Positions 2,174-19,244 of a stretch of DNA of 38,282 nt are shown piece after piece. Position numbers and translations under genes: made by a program. The notes under the pieces are model-generated. The model saw only the letters and a list, made by a program, of their open reading frames with translations. It had not been told where the DNA came from and ran no database searches. Numbering within the stretch: position 1 is the stretch's first letter; the number at the start of each line of letters is the position of its first letter. This stretch comes from Chitinophaga pinensis. Its GTDB lineage: Bacteria; Bacteroidota; Bacteroidia; CAMBQF01. The stretch spans positions 1-38,282 of the forward strand of contig CAMBQF010000011.1 in NCBI GenBank assembly GCA_945869825.1, given 5' to 3'.

Positions 2174-2742
2174 TGAAAAAAGCAATTACCATCCTATTAC
2201 TGGCAATAACATCTGCTGCCTTTGCTCAACCAGTTAACAGTGGTGAAATACCAGGCCAATACCAGATTTCAAAAATGTACATAAGCGATACCTTGTTTTA
2301 TGATATTGCTAACCCAGCAAAATCAAATAAGAATATCCTGATAGAAATAAGTAAACAGGTCCCTTCTAATTTTTACAACCAGCATTATAATTTCGAGCCT
2401 TTTACTTACGATACCGACAGCACAATTGCTATTAGCCTTTTCTACAAAGACATAAAAAAAGCCCTTTCAACAACCATTACGTTTGAACCAGGTGGCAGTT
2501 TAGTTTCAACAGCCTATATTTCTAAAACCGGCAAGCATTTGGCTTATCCCTTTTCACCAGCACTAGAAGGTATAGAATCAACAGAGCATTGGGATTTTAG
2601 CGAGACGAAGCAAATAATTACCATATCGCATAAAGGTTCGCCTAAAGAAAAATACCCGGTTGCACACATTAATAACTTAGTGGTTATAACTATAGAAGAT
2701 AAAGTTGAACACACTAAAATTGAACTACAGAAAATATATTAG
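2173..2742 (+). CDS. small secreted protein, second of a tandem paralog pair
   Basis: A 189-residue secreted protein with signal peptide MKKAITILLLAITSAAFA followed by QPVN. It is clearly paralogous to the gene just upstream: GEIPGQYQISKM, SDTLFYDIANPAKSNKNILIEI and VVITIEDKVEHTKIELQKIY align with the same segments there. It carries extra residues in two places, a FYNQHYNFEPFTYDTD-containing loop and a longer stretch before the final strands. It is coupled to the upstream copy by the TAATG overlap, so both are likely made from one mRNA. Its 3' end overlaps the convergent gene by 4 bp (2739-2742). Function unknown; envelope location is inferred from the signal peptide. Confidence 0.75.
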   Translation: MKKAITILLLAITSAAFAQPVNSGEIPGQYQISKMYISDTLFYDIANPAKSNKNILIEISKQVPSNFYNQHYNFEPFTYDTDSTIAISLFYKDIKKALSTTITFEPGGSLVSTAYISKTGKHLAYPFSPALEGIESTEHWDFSETKQIITISHKGSPKEKYPVAHINNLVVITIEDKVEHTKIELQKIY

Positions 2743-3653
2743 GCTTTCTTTAGCTTATAGTTTTTATCGTTGCCAATAATGTTGAATGAGAATGATAATA
2801 CAAAATAGTTGAAGTATTTATATTTATTGTAATAAGTAGGCCTCATTCCAAATTCTAGTTTGGTTGATGAGCCCTGCTGTTCTGATTGTATACCAAAACG
2901 CCATCCCCATGGGCTTTTGGGTGTTTGTTCTGGGTCGTATACCGCGTTGTTAAGGGTTATTACATCAGTAGCAGATTTTCCATACATAAAATCAGCATAG
3001 TATTTTATTGATGAGTAGCGTAGCCAATAGTAACGGTAAGCAGTAACCTTTGCTTTAATAACAGTGCGCCACGCAAGCCCTGCATACACCCCTAAATTGG
3101 TAGCATTAGTATGGTAAACGTCTCCTGTAGCCGGCTTTAAGGTATCAGCATTTGAAATTAAATAGCGTTCGTTTTTATCGCGTACATAATAGTTGTTATT
3201 ATAATAATATACGCCGCCACGTATTGAAAAAAGACTCCTTTCATCTGCATTGGCCATAAAATAGCGGGTAGATATTACATCATCATACTGTTCTTGACTT
3301 GTAACAATCTTTAGGCTGGTGCCATCATAACTAACCCTACGCTTTAAAAACAACTCCAAACCTCCTTCAAAATAATTGGTTTTTACCTCGGGGTTAGTAG
3401 TACGCAAATCTCCCTCTTTAATCCAATAGTTGCGGGTTATATCGCGGCGGTATATAGCATTGTAATAAATGCGGTTAGCTATGACCCCCTCCAGCACACC
3501 ACCAAACTGGGGAATCAAATTATCACCTGCAATGTTAGCTGATAGTTTAAATGGCGATAGTTTTTCTGTTCGGTTTTCAGTTCGGTAAGATACCATTTGG
3601 GCGTTAGTCAAAATGCTGCACACTAATAATACCAGGGTGTAAAGTTTCCTCAT
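2739..3653 (-). CDS. secreted hypothetical protein, outer-membrane barrel-like
   Basis: A 304-residue protein with a Sec signal peptide (MRKLYTLVLLVCSILTNA, then QMVS). The mature sequence is rich in tyrosine, asparagine and alternating polar/hydrophobic stretches such as NRIYYNAIYRRDI, TVIKAKVTAYRYYWLRYSSIKYYADFMYG and YFNYFVLSFSFNII, which suggests membrane-spanning beta strands facing the outer membrane. I do not recognise a specific family. A TATATTTG box lies 18 bp upstream of the ATG, so it probably has its own promoter although the hydrolase gene stops only 32 bp upstream. Its 3' end overlaps the convergent gene by 4 bp. The barrel call is inference from composition. Confidence 0.7.
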   Translation of the reverse strand: MRKLYTLVLLVCSILTNAQMVSYRTENRTEKLSPFKLSANIAGDNLIPQFGGVLEGVIANRIYYNAIYRRDITRNYWIKEGDLRTTNPEVKTNYFEGGLELFLKRRVSYDGTSLKIVTSQEQYDDVISTRYFMANADERSLFSIRGGVYYYNNNYYVRDKNERYLISNADTLKPATGDVYHTNATNLGVYAGLAWRTVIKAKVTAYRYYWLRYSSIKYYADFMYGKSATDVITLNNAVYDPEQTPKSPWGWRFGIQSEQQGSSTKLEFGMRPTYYNKYKYFNYFVLSFSFNIIGNDKNYKLKKA

Positions 3654-3670
3654 TCGCTTAGCTTGATGAG

Positions 3671-3678
3671 CAAATATA
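3671..3678 (-). promoter_or_regulatory. Bacteroidota -7 box (TATATTTG) for the 3653 gene
   Basis: The minus strand reads TATATTTGC here, a full match to the Bacteroidota TAnnTTTG -7 element. The predicted transcript would start near 3666 and have a leader of about 12 bases before the ATG at 3653. I see no clear TTG -33 element at the usual spacing. Confidence 0.5.
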
Positions 3679-3685
3679 ACCTAAG

Positions 3686-4333
3686 CTAAATAACAGTAAG
3701 TATTTTGGCTAAAATAGCATTAACCTCTTTGTGGTTAAGCATTACCATCATATGCCCTCCATCTTTTACCCAGTAGCTAGCCTTAATAGAGAATGGATAT
3801 AATATTTTATCGGCGGTGCCATGTATATGCACAATAGCAGGGTTATAGTTATTGCGTTTCCATGTAGCTACCATTTTACTTGCCCTAAGCAAAAATGTAT
3901 TGTCTGTTTCCCTGATTACAGCTTTTAACAGTTCTTTATCATATTGATGTTTTATACCAAACAACAGATAAAACATAATATACATATGCTTTACTAATGT
4001 AATAGGTATAAGGTAAAGCAAGCCTAATAAACCAGCTACACGGTAAAGCCAGGGCACCTCTTTAGTACATTTAGAGCTGGATATAAGTATAACCTTTTTT
4101 GTAGGTATAAGGTCGGCAATTTCTGTTGCCAGCATGCCACCTAACGATACTCCCATAATTATGGGGTTGACCTCTGTTATTTGAGGTAACAACTTTAGGG
4201 CATAGCTTTTCATGGTATCGCCTTTGTCGGGCATAATCCATTTAATATACTTCAGGGTATAACCCGGTATTTCTGTCCGTTGAAAAAGCCTCTCATCAAT
4301 ACCTAAACCGGGTATACAGTATATAGTTGGCAT
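3686..4333 (-). CDS. alpha/beta hydrolase
   Basis: A 215-residue cytosolic-looking protein with the alpha/beta-hydrolase fold signature: the opening IYCIPGLGIDERLF (an oxyanion-loop HG-like element), nucleophile elbow GVSLGG with Ser63, acid Asp175 in HGTADKILYP and His194 in DGGHMMV. The triad order Ser-Asp-His and spacing fit the superfamily. A hydrophobic segment near residues 100-125 (VAGLLGLLYLIPITLVKHMYIMFYLLF) is probably the lid region. It begins 5 bp after the stop of the upstream TonB-dependent receptor, so both are very likely co-transcribed. Substrate unknown; the pairing might mean that it acts on the ligand taken up by the receptor, but that is inference only. Confidence 0.85.
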   Translation of the reverse strand: MPTIYCIPGLGIDERLFQRTEIPGYTLKYIKWIMPDKGDTMKSYALKLLPQITEVNPIIMGVSLGGMLATEIADLIPTKKVILISSSKCTKEVPWLYRVAGLLGLLYLIPITLVKHMYIMFYLLFGIKHQYDKELLKAVIRETDNTFLLRASKMVATWKRNNYNPAIVHIHGTADKILYPFSIKASYWVKDGGHMMVMLNHKEVNAILAKILTVI

Positions 4334-4338
4334 GTGGC

Positions 4339-6882
4339 TTAAAACTGTGCGTACAACCTAAGGTTTATCAACCTGTTGGTAAGGTAGTTGGGGATAGCGT
4401 ACTGGCGGCCGCTAAAATCTTTAATCCACAGGTACGACACAGTGTTGTTTACGCCCAAAAGGTTAAACACCTCCAGGCTAATAAACATATTTTTAAAGTA
4501 GCGGAACATGCTTTTATCGCGGAACTTGGTTTTTTCCGAAATCAATTGTTTTTGGAAACCAATATCTACACGGCGGTAAAAAGGCATACGCAAGGTGTCT
4601 TTATACCTATTAAAATCGGGTGGGCCAAACGGAAAGCCAGTGCCAAACGTCAGGGTAATATTCATTTTAAAGGTTGGCCATTTGGGCAAATGGTCTTGAA
4701 AGAACATACTGAATGTTACCCTTTGGTCCATAGGGCGTGGAATAAGCCCTGGGTTATATTTTACTGTATCAACCGCTACCTGGTTGGCTGAAAAGCCTGG
4801 TATAATTTTATTACCATTCGCATCATACAGGTCGTAGTATACATCATTCTTTAGATTTTCGCCAGTTTTCATTATAGATAAACTCATCCACGACTCTACC
4901 CCTTTTACAAACTGGCCATTAACCCGCGCATCAATACCTGTGGTATAGCCGCTGCTTAGGTTTTGGGCATAGTAACGTATACGTACGTTATCTATTTCGT
5001 AGGGTATAAGGTCGTTTAAGAATTTGTAGTATGCTTCAACCGATAGTTTAAAGTCGCGCTTCCAGGCTTTAAAATAATGGTCGGCACCTCCAATTATGTG
5101 TATAGAACGCTGGGCCCTGATATCAGTATTAAGCGTACCCTGCAAACTGCGCAACTCACGGTAAAAGGGCGGCTGGTAATAATAACCTCCTGCAATCCTG
5201 AATTGCCATGTCCGCGGACGTATGATAGTATCTAAAATACCTTTTCTGTTTGTCTTAATAACAGTATCTACTTTCCATTTTGGGGTTAAAGATATCTGCA
5301 CACGCGGACTTATAACCAATTGCTGATTTACCGACCAATAGTTAGCCCTAACACCAACATTAGCAGACCATTTATGCCCTTTAGCTGTAGTGTCGCTATA
5401 GCTGTCTTGCACATAACCCATAAAGCGGTTAGACGATAAACTTAAGGTGGTTTTTAAAACATCCTGTAGCTTAATAATATCATCGTTGCCTGATGGTACT
5501 GAATAATCGGCACTGTCAACGTAACGCCACTCATTCAGCTTATCTTTAAACTCCTCGTGCTGCCATTTTATGCCATATACAAGGTGGTGCTTATTTATTG
5601 TAAGGTATGATTTATGCTCTACATTATATATGTATGATTGCAGCTTGTTGCGGTTGTGGGTAAGAAAAGAGCCTACCCCCAATAGCGCAGAAGACTGGCC
5701 AAAATCGTCAGAGCCAAAATCGGTTTCCACATCATTAAGAAAGTATTGGCCTAATACATCAGAGTTCTCCACTTCTGTTGACCTAAAGCCCGATGTTATA
5801 AACTTCATCAGCCAGTTTTTATTCGCCCTGTATACAAGGCTAAAAGCCGACATGTAGGTATCAAAGCTATTCGTTTCCTGTCCTTCAAAATAAATTTGCA
5901 GGCGAAGTGCTTCGTTTAATGTTCCAAAGGTTGTTTCCCTGTTGGTAGGCACTACACGGTATTTGTTTTGAGAGTAGCTGCCAAGGTACTGCAATTGCAA
6001 ATTATCGGTAAAATCATAGGTAAACTGTGCCTGCACATCGGCTGATGATGGACGGTAATTACCCTTAGTATCCAGGCTATTAAGCAAGTATTGGGTAGTA
6101 CGCTGGCGGGCGCCTACTAAAAACGTAAACCTGTTGTCTTTTGAAATACCTTCCAGCTGGCCTGTAAAACCTAATATACTGGCCGATGCTGAACCACCAA
6201 ACCTGGTTGGCCTGCGGTATTGTATATCAAGCACCGACGACATTTTATCGCCATAACGAGCTTCAAAGCCTCCGGCTGAAAAATTAATGCCCGATACCAT
6301 GTCAGGATTAATAAAACTTAAGCCCTCTTGCTGGCCTGAGCGGACAAGGAAAGGACGGTATACCTCAATATCATTTATATACACCAGGTTTTCATCGTAA
6401 CTGCCGCCGCGCACTGAGTATTGCGATGATAATTCATTATTAGATACTACCCCTGGCAGGGTTTTAATTATAGTCTCTACCCCTCCGGCTGGCGATGTTA
6501 CCACAACGGTTGTAATGGGGTCTATAGACACCCCGGGTTTATCTGCTACAATTACCACCCCATTTATATCCGCCCCTTTAACATCCAATTTAATGTTCAA
6601 TTGTGCAGCTTCATCTACAGCAAATGTGCGTTTTATAAGCTTTTGCTCGGTATTATTTAGCCTAAAGGTTATGGTAACTTCTTTTCCTGCAGGAGATGAT
6701 AACGTAAAGGCACCGTCAAGGTCTGTAACAGCTAGGCTAATACCATTTACTGTAATAATAACATTGGGTAAAGCTTCATTCTTATCATTAACAACCCTTC
6801 CTTTAACGGTAGCGGTTTGCCCAAATGCCATAGCACTTAGCAGTAATAAAACAATTATGTATAGCGAGCGTAGACCTTTCAT
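4339..6882 (-). CDS. TonB-dependent receptor with carboxypeptidase-regulatory-like N-domain
   Basis: An 847-residue outer-membrane transporter. Order: signal peptide ending SAMAFG before QTAT; a carboxypeptidase-regulatory-like beta domain at about residues 23-105 (VKGRVVNDKNEALPNVIITV, DLDGAFTL); a plug at about 125-230 with IIKTLPGV, YSVRGGSYDENLVYINDIEVY and GGFEARYGDKMSSVLDI; then a long barrel ending in LRLYAQF, an aromatic terminus as usual for outer-membrane barrels. The codon at 6885 is TTG directly before the ATG, so 6882 is chosen as the start. A TATATTTG box sits 8 bp upstream, giving a near-leaderless transcript. The alpha/beta hydrolase follows after 5 bp. Ligand unknown. Confidence 0.92.
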   Translation of the reverse strand: MKGLRSLYIIVLLLLSAMAFGQTATVKGRVVNDKNEALPNVIITVNGISLAVTDLDGAFTLSSPAGKEVTITFRLNNTEQKLIKRTFAVDEAAQLNIKLDVKGADINGVVIVADKPGVSIDPITTVVVTSPAGGVETIIKTLPGVVSNNELSSQYSVRGGSYDENLVYINDIEVYRPFLVRSGQQEGLSFINPDMVSGINFSAGGFEARYGDKMSSVLDIQYRRPTRFGGSASASILGFTGQLEGISKDNRFTFLVGARQRTTQYLLNSLDTKGNYRPSSADVQAQFTYDFTDNLQLQYLGSYSQNKYRVVPTNRETTFGTLNEALRLQIYFEGQETNSFDTYMSAFSLVYRANKNWLMKFITSGFRSTEVENSDVLGQYFLNDVETDFGSDDFGQSSALLGVGSFLTHNRNKLQSYIYNVEHKSYLTINKHHLVYGIKWQHEEFKDKLNEWRYVDSADYSVPSGNDDIIKLQDVLKTTLSLSSNRFMGYVQDSYSDTTAKGHKWSANVGVRANYWSVNQQLVISPRVQISLTPKWKVDTVIKTNRKGILDTIIRPRTWQFRIAGGYYYQPPFYRELRSLQGTLNTDIRAQRSIHIIGGADHYFKAWKRDFKLSVEAYYKFLNDLIPYEIDNVRIRYYAQNLSSGYTTGIDARVNGQFVKGVESWMSLSIMKTGENLKNDVYYDLYDANGNKIIPGFSANQVAVDTVKYNPGLIPRPMDQRVTFSMFFQDHLPKWPTFKMNITLTFGTGFPFGPPDFNRYKDTLRMPFYRRVDIGFQKQLISEKTKFRDKSMFRYFKNMFISLEVFNLLGVNNTVSYLWIKDFSGRQYAIPNYLTNRLINLRLYAQF

Positions 6883-14079: not shown

Positions 14080-14114
14080 AAAAGGCGTCTAATTTATAAC
14101 CAGACGCCTTTTTT
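14080..14114. terminator. terminator after infB, bidirectional
   Basis: GGCGTCT (14084-14090) pairs perfectly with AGACGCC (14102-14108) around an 11-base loop, extended by AAAA on the left and TTTT on the right; six Ts follow on the + strand. It ends 22 bp before the stop of the convergent nfeD-like gene, and its AAAA-flanked reverse strand can terminate that transcript too. Confidence 0.85.
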
Positions 14115-14136: not shown

Positions 14137-15483
14137 CTAAACCTTTTCTTTTACTGTAAGCTGGGCTAATGTTTGTGAAACAACCACTACTTGTTTACCA
14201 GCCGTTATGTAGCCAGTAATTGCAGTAGCATCGTAAACCACTTCGCCAATTTCTATTTTACCTGCAGGGCGAAGGTCGGTATGTGCAAGTCCCTCTGTTC
14301 CAATTAATGAGTGGTGCTGCTCTGAGCTTACAAACCCTTTGTTGCTATTTTGTACAGATTGTAGGGCTACCCTCTTGAACATATGGGTATCAAATAACTT
14401 ATAAGCTACCCAAATGCTTCCTGCCAACCCTACTAATGTAGAAACGCTAACCAAGGCCAGCGATTTTACAACAGTATCACCATTTACACTTGAAAAATCT
14501 AACCCGACATTGCTAAGCAGGCTCAGTGTTAACCCGGCTACCATTAGTACTATGCCAGCAATGCCTATAACCCCAAAACCCGGTATGGCAAACAGTTCTA
14601 TCATCAAAAGTATAACCCCGACAAAGAATACCACTATCTCCCAGTTTGCAGCAAGGCCTTCAAGATAAAGCGGTGCAAAGTACAATATAGCTCCAATTAG
14701 GGCTATAAGCAAAGGCAACCCTATACCCGGTTGCTGCAATTCAAAGTAAATCCCGCCAATAATCATTAAAATAAGGATGCCACTAACCGCGGGGCTTATA
14801 AGGAAGTTAATAAGCTTATCTAGTGTGCTGGGTTTATACTCTACTATTTCATAATTAGCAATTCCGGCATGCTTTAACACCTCCTCCACATTCTCGGCAA
14901 TACCCTGGCAATACTTATTTTTAATAGCTTCTGATGCGGTAAACGTTAATACCTTACCCGAGTCATTAACTCCGGGGATATAGGTGCGTGGGTCTACCAT
15001 AGCTTCGGCAATTAATGGGTCGCGGCCATTCTTCTCAGCCGTAGAGCGCATAATAGACCTCATATACGACTGGTATTTATCGGGCATAATTTCTCCATCG
15101 CCATTAACCACGCTGGCAGCTCCCATGCTACCACCCTGTCGCATATATATACTATCGCACGATATGGCAATTAGCGCCCCTGCTGATGCTGCATTGTTAT
15201 TAATGAATACATAAACAGGTATAGGAGAATTTAGGATTTTGGTACGGATAGAATCGGCTGCATCTAGCATACCACCGTAGGTATTTAGTTGCAATAGTAT
15301 GATGTCAGCCTTAGCCTCTTTAGCAGCATTAAAAGCCTGCTTGGTTAATCGCCAGGTTGGCGGGGCTATTTCATCAGCAATAGTAAAAGTAAAAACCCGC
15401 TTCTTCCCTACCTCACTTTGTGCAAAGCCGATAGTAAATACAAATAATAAAAGGGTAAACAGCAGTATTGATTTAGCTTTCAT
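14137..15483 (-). CDS. NfeD-family membrane serine protease (long form with ClpP-like domain)
   Basis: A 448-residue member of the long NfeD proteins. A signal peptide ends GFA before QSEV. A ClpP-class serine protease domain follows (about 28-210), with Ser100 in NNNAASAGALIA as the likely nucleophile and Lys136 in MPDKYQSYMRS as the likely base, the Ser-Lys dyad known from the archaeal homolog. Four or five membrane segments lie at about 228-360 (SGILILMIIGGIYFEL, LPLLIALIGAILYFAPLYL, IVVFFVGVILLMIELFAI, VIGIAGIVLMVAGLTLSLL), and a C-terminal OB-fold NfeD domain (LIGTEGLAHTDLRPAGKIEIG) ends the protein. Long NfeD proteins usually pair with a stomatin-like gene; none is present here. It lies 17 bp after the copper-monooxygenase gene, suggesting co-transcription. 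Confidence 0.92.
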   Translation of the reverse strand: MKAKSILLFTLLLFVFTIGFAQSEVGKKRVFTFTIADEIAPPTWRLTKQAFNAAKEAKADIILLQLNTYGGMLDAADSIRTKILNSPIPVYVFINNNAASAGALIAISCDSIYMRQGGSMGAASVVNGDGEIMPDKYQSYMRSIMRSTAEKNGRDPLIAEAMVDPRTYIPGVNDSGKVLTFTASEAIKNKYCQGIAENVEEVLKHAGIANYEIVEYKPSTLDKLINFLISPAVSGILILMIIGGIYFELQQPGIGLPLLIALIGAILYFAPLYLEGLAANWEIVVFFVGVILLMIELFAIPGFGVIGIAGIVLMVAGLTLSLLSNVGLDFSSVNGDTVVKSLALVSVSTLVGLAGSIWVAYKLFDTHMFKRVALQSVQNSNKGFVSSEQHHSLIGTEGLAHTDLRPAGKIEIGEVVYDATAITGYITAGKQVVVVSQTLAQLTVKEKV

Positions 15484-15500
15484 AATTAGTTTTAATATTA

Positions 15501-16871
15501 TTATTCCAATGGAATATTTTCATCGCCGGGCTTGTAATTTACATACACGCATATCAATTGAAACATTTCATCAGTAGTGCGCATACTACCATCGCGTTCC
15601 CTTATTTCCCGTGGTGGAGAATAGGGGTTGTTAGGGTTTTGCGCTGTATTATCATACACACCTTCGGCTACAATACGAGAGCCTGCGGGTATCTTTACCA
15701 TTTTTTTAAAGGTATAAAAATATTGCCACCTAAAATCCCATTTGTTAATACGCACAAGATTAATGGTATCTCCTTGGGGAGTTAGCACATAAGCCTTAAA
15801 GGTTTTGCCAATAAGGTGCATGTGGGGTATAACAGTAAGCAATGATATATTTTTATCAATAATCTTCTCTGCCTTAAACGACTTTACCGTATTAGGAGGA
15901 ACAATCAGCGCTGGGGTTACTTCTGCACGTTTGCCTGTGCTTAAGGTACCTAAAATGAACTCCCCCGTTGGCCTTTCAGGCGCCTTAGGACTGAAGTATA
16001 TATTAAAGTAAGAACTATCTGAGACATCTATAGGTGTTGGCCCGTAGTGCATATCATTAAGATACAAAGCCCCGTTAGCTTTAAAGCGGTAGCCTCCAAT
16101 ACCTTGCGGATACATATAAGGTATATTGCCTGGCAGGTAGTTACTTACCGATGGTGTCATTAGTGGATACGTACCGTCATCGTTCAACAAGCCTATAGTT
16201 TTATGTATTTCTCCCGCTAAAGTATCTTGTTGGTTTGCCCAAACTGTTTTGTCCAAACCATTAATCTTTTTACCCGGTTCATAGCTTATCAGGTGGGCAT
16301 TAACATGGTGCACTACCTTACGGTTACCTGGTATATACTCTATAAAACGGACAAAGGTATCTTTGGCCATTTTATAAGGCAGCTTCATTACCAAAAAATT
16401 ATCGGTGTTGTTACCTTTAATAATGTACCGTTTGTCCATGGCTATTACCAAATCGGCTTTGCGGTTGGTAAACGGTTGGTCCCAAGTGGAAGGCGGTTGC
16501 AGCTTAGCCGTATCGCCGGGCTGCATCCCCTGGTCAACCCAAAGTCCGATGGTTGCAATTTCCGCATCAGTTAACACCTTTTCGCCTATAAAATGAGAAT
16601 AGGAAGGATCGGCAGGCCAGGGTGGCATAAAACGGGTGGCTGTAACCACTTTAATAAGCGATGCCCTATTCCTAACCTCAGTATAGTTAGTCAGCTTAAA
16701 CGGAGCTATATTATCGTCCCTATGGCAGGGGGTACAGTTTTTATAAATTATGGGAGCTACATGCTCTGCAAAGGTTGGATTAGCTGGCGTGTCTTGTTTA
16801 TTACTGTTAAATGTACATGCAGCAAAAATTGCTGGTATTAAGGCTAATGTATAGTGTATACGCAGCTGCAT
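15501..16871 (-). CDS. lipoprotein with cytochrome c motif and PHM-type copper monooxygenase domains
   Basis: A 456-residue exported protein with a lipobox (FAAC, Cys19), so it is probably membrane-anchored in the envelope. Residues 33-120 form a cytochrome c-like domain: heme motif CTPCH at 46-50 and candidate axial Met82 in RFMPPWP. Residues about 140-450 resemble the two-domain copper type II, ascorbate-dependent monooxygenases (peptidylglycine hydroxylating and dopamine beta-monooxygenase type). All six expected copper ligands can be proposed: His188, His189 (VVHHV) and His275 (DMHYGP) for the first copper, His350, His352 (PHMH) and Met436 (TTDEMFQL) for the second. The gene starts one base after the HMG-CoA lyase stop. 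Substrate unknown; heme c could deliver the electrons that ascorbate supplies in animals, which is inference. Confidence 0.85.
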   Translation of the reverse strand: MQLRIHYTLALIPAIFAACTFNSNKQDTPANPTFAEHVAPIIYKNCTPCHRDDNIAPFKLTNYTEVRNRASLIKVVTATRFMPPWPADPSYSHFIGEKVLTDAEIATIGLWVDQGMQPGDTAKLQPPSTWDQPFTNRKADLVIAMDKRYIIKGNNTDNFLVMKLPYKMAKDTFVRFIEYIPGNRKVVHHVNAHLISYEPGKKINGLDKTVWANQQDTLAGEIHKTIGLLNDDGTYPLMTPSVSNYLPGNIPYMYPQGIGGYRFKANGALYLNDMHYGPTPIDVSDSSYFNIYFSPKAPERPTGEFILGTLSTGKRAEVTPALIVPPNTVKSFKAEKIIDKNISLLTVIPHMHLIGKTFKAYVLTPQGDTINLVRINKWDFRWQYFYTFKKMVKIPAGSRIVAEGVYDNTAQNPNNPYSPPREIRERDGSMRTTDEMFQLICVYVNYKPGDENIPLE

Positions 16872-16872
16872 A

Positions 16873-17730
16873 TTAATTATGGCCTACAAATACAGACTGT
16901 GCCTCAATCATAGCCGCATCAAATGCCGGGATATCCAATCCCGTTTCAATATTGTTCTGCTGGCAATAGGCTAAGAGATTTTCGGTGGCAAAATTGCCTG
17001 TTAGTTTATCATCGGCCATAGGGCAGCCGCCAAAACCTTTCATGGCACTGTCGAATCTTAGGCAACCTGCTGTGTAGGCTGCATCAACTTTAGTTTGCCA
17101 ATCATTTGGCTTGGTATGCAAATGCGCACCAAACTCTACGTTTGGCAAAGCCGGTATTAAATAGCTAAATACATTTTTAATATCTTCAGGGTTTGCAGTA
17201 CCCACCGTATCGGCAAGGGCAATATTCTTAATACCCATTTCGGCTATTTTATTGGCCCAGTTGGTAACAATTTCAGGGCTCCAGGCATCGCCATAAGGGT
17301 TACCAAAACCCATAGAAAGGTATACCAACAGGGTTTTACCTCTTTGGTCGCAAAGGTTTTTCATTTGCTCTACCGTTTTTAGCGATTGTTCGATACTACT
17401 GTTGGTGTTTCGTTGCTGAAATGTTTCAGATACAGAAAATGGAAACCCTAATATGCTTACTTCATCAAAAAAACAGGCATCCAAAGCGCCGCGCATATTG
17501 GCTACTATTGATAGCAATTTGGTTTGGGTAGTACTTAAATCAAGTTTAGAGATAACCAAAGGGGTATCCTTCATTTGTGGGATAGCATATGGCGAAACAA
17601 AGCTGCCAAAATCCAACACATCAAAACCAACTTTAAGCAGCTTGTTTATATACCCGGCTTTAATATCAGTAGGTATAAACTCTTTAATACCTTGCATTGC
17701 ATCGCGTGGGCACTCTGTAATATGTATCAT
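16873..17730 (-). CDS. hydroxymethylglutaryl-CoA lyase family protein
   Basis: HMG-CoA lyases split HMG-CoA into acetoacetate and acetyl-CoA, the last step of leucine and some isoprenoid degradation. The 285-residue TIM-barrel protein has ECPRDAMQG at 6-14 (Arg9, Asp10 correspond to the catalytic Arg-Asp of EVGPRDGLQ), FGSFVSPYAIPQM at 41-53, metal-site GAHLHT (His203, His205) and the G-loop GFGGCPMA with the catalytic Cys236, then TGNFATE. The first motif is one residue shorter than in canonical enzymes and the G-loop has Met for Tyr, so a related acyl-CoA lyase activity is possible. It is the first gene of a three-gene minus-strand run and diverges from the AtuA-family gene 107 bp away. Confidence 0.88.
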   Translation of the reverse strand: MIHITECPRDAMQGIKEFIPTDIKAGYINKLLKVGFDVLDFGSFVSPYAIPQMKDTPLVISKLDLSTTQTKLLSIVANMRGALDACFFDEVSILGFPFSVSETFQQRNTNSSIEQSLKTVEQMKNLCDQRGKTLLVYLSMGFGNPYGDAWSPEIVTNWANKIAEMGIKNIALADTVGTANPEDIKNVFSYLIPALPNVEFGAHLHTKPNDWQTKVDAAYTAGCLRFDSAMKGFGGCPMADDKLTGNFATENLLAYCQQNNIETGLDIPAFDAAMIEAQSVFVGHN

Positions 17731-17837: not shown

Positions 17838-19244
17838 GTGAGCAATACACAACAACCCATCAGGATAGCAGGTGCACAAGGCTTTTATGGCGATAGCCCT
17901 ATGGCTGCTATGAATATTGTAATGGAAAAAGGAGCCGACTATCTGGTACACGACGCTTTGGCCGAGCTAACCTTATCAATTTTACAAAAAGACCGCATGG
18001 CCGACCCTCGCCATGGGTATGCCCGCGATATAGAGTTTTTAGCTACTATGCTAATACCGGCTGCTTTTAGCCAGGGGATTAAAATAGTAACCAACTCAGG
18101 TGGGTTAAACCCTGAAGGCGCTGCCACACGTGTAAAAGCAATATTAGAAAAGCAGGGTGTAAAAGGTTTAAAGATTGCTATTATTAGCGGTGATAATTTA
18201 TATGACCAACTGGGAAACCTGAAAGAGCAAGGCCACGAGTTGCGCAATATGGATACTAACCAGCCGTATGCCGAAAGCAAATACCAGCCTACCCATGCCA
18301 ATGTATATATGGGTGCTAAAAGTGTTGCCGAGGCGCTAGACCAAGGTGCTGACTTAATACTGGCTGGCCGTGTTGCCGACCCGTGTTTAACGTTAGGGAT
18401 ACTGGTACACCACTATGGATGGAAACTGGATGGCGATTTATCGCAAGCTGATTTAGACTTATTAGCCTCAGGTATTGCAATTGGGCACTTAATTGAATGT
18501 GGCGGGCAGGCTTCGGGTGGAAACTCCTATGCAGAGTGGCCTATGGAGTACCCTATATATAACCTGGGCTACCCTATTGCCCATGTGTATGCCGATGGTT
18601 CAGCTGTTATGACCAAGCTGGAAAGCCAGGGCGGTAAAGTATCGCGCAATACCATACGCGAGCAACTGGTGTATGAAATACACGACCCGGCTAACTACCT
18701 TACGCCTGATGTTACCGTAGATTTAACAGAGGTTAAGATAGAAGATATTGAGCCTAACAAGGTTAGTTTTAAAGGGGTGAAAGGCAAAATCCGCCCGGAG
18801 AAGCTAAAACTTACTATAGGTCAAATGGAAGGATATATTTCTGACCAATTTTTCTATTTCTCGGCCCCATTTGCTTACGACAAGGCTGTAATGTTTATTG
18901 ATGCCGTAAAAAAGATATGGGCCAACCTACCTATCAAAATAGACCGTCAGGAGTTTTCTATTATAGGGCTTGATGGCATGCACCCAGGTGCAGCACCTGC
19001 CTTAGCCCCTGAGGTTTTAAACAGCCTAAACGAGATTGGGGTTCGCCTTTGCATTATGCATCAGGATGAACGTGCGGGCAAACTGGCATTACAATCTATA
19101 GTATGCTTAGGGTTAAATGGCCCTCCGGGAACTATCAGTATTCCTGGATGGGGTAAACCAGGCAAGGCGATGCTAAGCTTATGGCCAACCCTTATACCAC
19201 GAGATTGGGTTCAGGAAAAATTGGAGATTTTAGAAACGGTATAG
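17838..19244 (+). CDS. AtuA family protein (acyclic terpene utilization, DUF1446)
   Basis: A 468-residue cytosolic protein of the AtuA/DUF1446 family. Recognisable segments are IRIAGAQGFYGDS (8-20), VTNSGGLNPEGAA, DLILAGRVADPCLTLGILVHHYGW, the glycine-rich ECGGQASGGN, and QSIVCLGLNGPPGTISIPGWGKPGKA near the C-terminus. The start is GTG at 17838: an in-frame TAA stands two codons upstream and no ATG intervenes. Family members are named after the geranyl/citronellyl-CoA degradation cluster of Pseudomonas, though their exact reaction is not settled. Divergence from an HMG-CoA lyase gene fits a branched-chain or isoprenoid acid pathway, but the carboxylase subunits and acyl-CoA dehydrogenase of that pathway are not in the window. 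Confidence 0.85.
   Translation: MSNTQQPIRIAGAQGFYGDSPMAAMNIVMEKGADYLVHDALAELTLSILQKDRMADPRHGYARDIEFLATMLIPAAFSQGIKIVTNSGGLNPEGAATRVKAILEKQGVKGLKIAIISGDNLYDQLGNLKEQGHELRNMDTNQPYAESKYQPTHANVYMGAKSVAEALDQGADLILAGRVADPCLTLGILVHHYGWKLDGDLSQADLDLLASGIAIGHLIECGGQASGGNSYAEWPMEYPIYNLGYPIAHVYADGSAVMTKLESQGGKVSRNTIREQLVYEIHDPANYLTPDVTVDLTEVKIEDIEPNKVSFKGVKGKIRPEKLKLTIGQMEGYISDQFFYFSAPFAYDKAVMFIDAVKKIWANLPIKIDRQEFSIIGLDGMHPGAAPALAPEVLNSLNEIGVRLCIMHQDERAGKLALQSIVCLGLNGPPGTISIPGWGKPGKAMLSLWPTLIPRDWVQEKLEILETV

Follow-up and report, generated by a model that had tools for sequence, protein, structure and literature searches.

A predicted heme c-fused relative of the PHM/DBM copper monooxygenases in Bacteroidota, its recurrent thioredoxin-fold partner and its tandem copies on phage contigs

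Animals use the two-copper PHM/DBH fold for peptide hormones and noradrenaline. Peptide:N-glycosidase F is a deglycosylating enzyme and not a copper enzyme. It has the double jelly-roll and the Pfam clan (CL0612) in common with the protein described here (PMC8812541), and a 2022 paper presents it as the bacterial cousin of PHM, an enzyme that the paper regards as widespread in eukaryotes (PMC8812541). Table 3 of a 2020 review places PHM and DBM among eukaryotic copper families only (PMC7435645). In contrast to this eukaryote-only listing, full-length proteins that combine a heme c motif with PHM-type copper ligands (heme c-PHM) are frequent among Bacteroidota and turn up again in T4-like phages, their ligands fully preserved. 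A search among open-licence papers found none that deals with heme c-PHM in bacteria or with PHM carried by phages, and the family is apparently undescribed in the literature searched. The thioredoxin-fold (redoxin) partner and the phage-borne tandem copies reported below are new facts.

Ligands and fold of the heme c-PHM protein

The window, that is the whole stretch of 38,282 nucleotides that was analysed, is contig 11 of a Bacteroidota genome of 2.98 Mb in 189 contigs. On its minus strand, positions 15501..16871 encode a lipoprotein of 456 residues that resembles heme c and PHM/DBM-type copper monooxygenases, as judged from the open reading frame, a PF03712 match and an AlphaFold2 model compared by Foldseek. 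The protein begins with a signal peptide (16815..16871, minus strand) whose lipobox-like end, ...IFAAC, terminates at Cys19, the predicted lipidation site; in the alignment of close relatives this position is Cys in 74 of 76. The initial annotation had placed a lipobox ahead of the heme and copper regions, which is borne out, and all of the motif positions it named were found in the ORF. These are the heme c attachment motif CTPCH at residues 46-50 (16722..16736), Met82, the likely axial heme ligand, within a conserved MPPW (16626..16628), the predicted CuH (CuA) ligands His188-His189 (16305..16310) and His275 (16047..16049), the predicted CuM (CuB) ligands His350-x-His352 (15816..15824), which lie within the PF03712 match at residues 337-412, and Met436 (15564..15566), the predicted CuM thioether ligand, all on the minus strand.

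His, Met and Cys occur 11, 13 and 4 times in the protein. When 26 divergent homologues, among them paralogues at 32-39% identity, are aligned, the invariant residues of these three kinds are exactly H50, H188, H189, H275, H350, H352, M82, M436, C46 and C49, and none beyond these ten. All ten are likewise unchanged throughout 76 closer homologues (76/76). Residues picked out by chance would not show such conservation, and the ligand set is more than chance. In no aligned homologue does the heme motif occur apart from the copper ligands. The Pfam match of the window protein to c-type cytochromes is sub-threshold, and its cytochrome features are the CXXCH motif and the distal Met, with C46, C49, H50 and M82 invariant.

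The C-terminal copper domain PF03712 (Cu2_monoox_C) is matched by the window protein with 29.9 bits (cut-off 23) and by 72 of the 76 relatives at E up to 0.01. The N-terminal domain PF01082 (Cu2_monooxygen) gave no Pfam match in the window protein; paralogues in the same genome match PF01082 and PF03712, one of them exceeding the PF01082 cut-off (32.1 vs 30). The AlphaFold2 model, computed from 76 sequences, has a pLDDT of 90.7 and a pTM of 0.86 and displays a two-domain jelly-roll fold. The comparison of a predicted structure with PHM that the initial annotation had proposed turned out in its favour: in a Foldseek search of the PDB, ranks 1-31 of the model are all DBH or PHM, the best being DBH with an E of 1.2e-12, and the next fold match follows at 6.5e-5. 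Human DBH and rat PHM are the only good PDB matches of the model, with a modest TM-score to DBH of 0.48 by query at 14% identity. When the PDB was searched directly by sequence, using the protein and two profiles, no PHM match appeared, only weak heme-domain matches and chance ones. The PHM relationship is thus detectable only through Pfam and fold. Invariant ligands, PF03712 and a confident model with DBH/PHM as its best matches strongly support the assignment to a heme c/PHM type, which the initial annotation had made from the motifs and which is upheld at the level of sequence and model.

The predicted double jelly-roll, the HH + H and HxH + M ligand patterns and the PF03712 match above cut-off are features shared with DBH and PHM, the copper type II ascorbate-dependent monooxygenases (PF01082/PF03712). 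Unlike these enzymes, the window protein is a bacterial lipoprotein with an N-terminal heme c domain and belongs to a family with a thioredoxin-fold partner; identity is only about 14%, and the residues of the PHM peptide pocket are not kept. We take the peptide-carboxylate pocket of PHM to consist of R240, N316 and Y318. At the equivalent positions, located by their offset from the ligands, the close relatives have N at 348 (70/76), Q at 438 (76/76) and I at 440 (73/76). The loss of the pocket residues makes peptidylglycine hydroxylase activity improbable, and the protein is probably not a peptidylglycine hydroxylase, so that peptide amidation is an unlikely function.

The thioredoxin-fold partner and the supply of electrons

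The recurrent neighbour of heme c-PHM genes encodes a thioredoxin-fold lipoprotein of about 190 residues. Of 18 relatives from outside the genus, 12 have it as their upstream neighbour; among 78 further loci it stands at -1 in 29-30 (about 40%) and within five genes in 39, always on the strand of the PHM gene and frequently overlapping with its neighbour by 4-20 nt. In a quick tree of 87 sequences, linked loci are scattered over many clades, and the sister clade of the window protein shows the linkage in all five of its members. In two loci redoxin and heme c-PHM are fused into a single chain (L176:5256-7055, 599 residues; L179:1104-2993, 629 residues). The search model for redoxin was derived mainly from copies linked to PHM; the 19 genomes that it matched strongly all fell among the 34 of 60 relative genomes that carry full-length heme c-PHM (Fisher p 9e-7, relatedness ignored); a strong orthologue is missing in 15 of these 34. 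In the window genome the redoxin gene is not linked to the heme c-PHM gene but lies on another contig (C15), and the partner was therefore invisible to the initial annotation. The real recurrent partner of heme c-PHM is thus this thioredoxin-fold lipoprotein.

The redoxin model (pLDDT 93) matches the thioredoxin-like proteins 3u5r, 2cvb and 2ywi, followed by ResA-type proteins. With the former it shares the full-length sequence and fold match and the C-terminal GC cysteine. It differs from them in its linkage to PHM, in its envelope location, many copies having a lipobox-like cysteine, and in that the second cysteine of CPxC is often gone. The family's invariants are one active-site CP cysteine and the C-terminal GC cysteine; an invariant GC cysteine in proteins that have often lost the second cysteine of CPxC is an unusual thiol arrangement.

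We consider it probable, with some reserve, that the protein is an envelope PHM/DBM-like monooxygenase that is wired by heme c and assisted by redoxin. It would be a lipid-anchored protein of the envelope, with an N-terminal c-type heme domain and two separate mononuclear copper sites. Electrons from the respiratory chain or from periplasmic cytochromes would enter through the heme, which would pass them to the two copper sites in place of ascorbate, and the copper sites would drive the O2-dependent hydroxylation of a periplasmic substrate. Genes for cytochrome c assembly and for heme-copper oxidases are present in the window genome. The replacement of ascorbate by heme c as electron donor is plausible because the heme motif is never parted from the copper ligands in the aligned homologues. 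One heme carries one electron and one turnover takes two, so that the heme would need re-reduction or a second donor. If the heme feeds the coppers, the family shows how two-copper chemistry can run without ascorbate. It offers a one-chain system in which the entry of electrons could be followed by spectroscopy, and identification of the substrate would reveal a so far unrecognised envelope hydroxylation.

The redoxin lipoprotein, often translationally coupled and sometimes fused, would work with heme c-PHM, most likely by thiol redox work either in assembly (reduction of the heme motif or delivery of Cu(I)) or in turnover. Within the same reading, redoxin might be an assembly factor only, a reductase of the apocytochrome CXXCH or a Cu(I) chaperone, and the mature enzyme would then act independently of it. 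This version is a tentative but serious possibility: after the uncharacterised 2cvb type the next structural relatives of redoxin are ResA-type thiol-disulfide oxidoreductases, and the overlapping gene order fits co-translation, but the permanent fusions in L176 and L179 suggest a standing role and many PHM-bearing genomes are without a strong redoxin orthologue.

Alternatively, a PHM-like copper centre could receive its electrons from the redoxin thiols, and the heme would pass electrons out, in an oxidase or thiol-peroxide cycle. That redoxin is the only partner recurring across lineages, sometimes within the same chain, and that it retains two invariant cysteines, one in CP and one in GC, would fit such a cycle. 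Against it stand the unlinked redoxin of the window genome, the PHM-bearing genomes in which a strong orthologue is missing and the presence of the heme motif in every aligned homologue, and we regard this route as unlikely. Equally improbable in our estimate is a heme lipoprotein that uses the PHM fold not for oxygenation but for copper or oxygen sensing, copper storage or the handling of peroxide. Such a role would agree with the changed substrate-pocket residues, and neither a substrate gene nor a pathway partner came to light; however, both three-ligand copper sites are strictly kept, including the Met of the M site, which is hard to explain without O2 chemistry. Heme-fed monooxygenation assisted by redoxin is the reading that we prefer.

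Adjacent genes in the window

The spacings given in the initial annotation were confirmed. An HMGL-like lyase gene (16873..17730, minus strand; PF00682) ends 1 bp upstream of the heme c-PHM ORF, and 17 bp downstream of it follows a gene for an NfeD1b-type membrane serine protease (14137..15483, minus strand; PF25145, PF24961, PF01957). The product of the former had been called HMG-CoA lyase. It is HMGL-like (PF00682, E 1.5e-20), but it scores 188 bits with the NCBIfam hydroxymethylglutaryl-CoA lyase model, below the cut-off of 246. Beyond the NfeD gene, a pattern match alone indicates a terminator-like hairpin with a 15-pair stem and a T tail (14080..14112, minus strand), possibly the end of the run. 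The hairpin is compatible with a shared transcript and proves nothing on function. A gene of the AtuA family at 17838-19244 of the window is divergent from the HMGL-like gene, a pairing that is kept in a genome of the same genus (G001).

The linkage of the three genes, which the initial annotation had put forward as a unit, was not upheld by the survey of relatives: they are fully adjacent only in the window genome, the very outcome that the annotation had held to speak against its claim. In G001 the NfeD gene still adjoins PHM, and the HMGL-like gene is displaced by two ORFs; the stretch between PHM and HMGL (L034:9362-12655) encodes two lipoproteins of 529 and 546 residues without a Pfam match. 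In a second genome, G002, a 98%-identical PHM fragment adjoins NfeD, and HMGL was not found in this genome, which is 88% complete. NfeD is thus a neighbour in the genus only. HMGL, NfeD or AtuA was near PHM in none of the 18 class relatives outside the genus whose neighbourhoods were compared and in none of the 78 further, distant loci on named genome contigs, all of Bacteroidota; the two surveys overlap, some contigs being in both. That HMG-CoA lyase, envelope oxidase and NfeD protease form a pathway of their own, for which the tight same-strand spacing and the hairpin 3' of NfeD could be cited, is highly improbable, and these surveys rejected the trio as a conserved unit: full adjacency occurs in the window genome alone, HMGL lies farther off in G001 and did not turn up in G002, and none of the 78 distant loci keeps HMGL, NfeD or AtuA. 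HMGL and NfeD are incidental neighbours and the run is a local arrangement; the mixture of CoA lyase, oxidase and protease, which had seemed to call for an explanation, is no conserved unit. Other recurrent neighbours of heme c-PHM, namely DUF420, BrkB-type, 370-residue and LepA-linked genes, were not counted as evidence on function, as each appears confined to the synteny of one lineage.

Relatives in Bacteroidota and on viral contigs

A looser sample of the phylum contains strong matches that extend into the copper domain in 17 of 198 genomes. The raw tally of 85 of 198 was discarded because it overstates the family, most of its matches spanning the heme domain only. A plasmid search for heme c-PHM gave no match. 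The window genome contains two further paralogues, a tandem pair about 30 bp apart (G000:C47; L053:3204-6331), that share the CXXCH motif, MPPW and all copper ligands with the window protein at 33-36% identity. In place of a lipobox they bear a T9SS sorting tail (Por_Secre_tail) at the C-terminus and hence are probably secreted. In four loci (L085:9491-12961 and three similar ones) the PHM gene is followed by a gene for a T9SS-secreted PNGase F-like protein. At the level of predicted fold and ligands the enzyme reading is well supported, with the family as a heme-fused variant of the PHM/DBM enzymes.

A scan of IMG/VR revealed 225 stretches that encode heme c-PHM relatives, the best 80 of which were analysed. 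Phage genes lie alongside heme c-PHM in at least 51 of these 80 contigs, and 24 of these phage-gene loci have T4-like genes; four IMG/VR contigs have a bacterial-looking context, so that not every match is viral. At 53 loci of the best 80, two different heme c-PHM copies form a tandem, in many cases with an overlap of 29 or 1 nt. In L222 the pair (2656-5164) lies beside the major capsid gene in the order head scaffold, major head protein (PHROG E 1.4e-160), copy 1, copy 2, tail tube, UvsY, helicase, and similar arrangements occur in other loci from L179 to L258. Among 50,697 deposited phages and the PHROGs there is no match to either L222 copy. The capsid gene of L222 is 70% identical to that of Methylophilales phage Melnitz and 69% identical to that of Pelagibacter phage HTVC008M, and the heme c-PHM gene is absent from the corresponding stretch of both. 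From their gene content, some IMG/VR carriers can be identified as T4-like marine phages in which heme c-PHM occurs as a tandem pair. It is quite possible, though we advance it with caution, that a broad family of ascorbate-independent PHM-type oxygenases, fed by a built-in heme c, extends over bacteria and viruses, with redoxin as partner in many bacteria and with an intact tandem pair beside the capsid genes of T4-like marine phages. If this is true, the phage pair would equip the envelope of the infected cell with copper oxygenases. Clustered at 95% identity, the copies on viral contigs fall into at least 32 groups. Of 128 such copies, 127 retain all heme and copper ligands, the single exception being a copy without its end.
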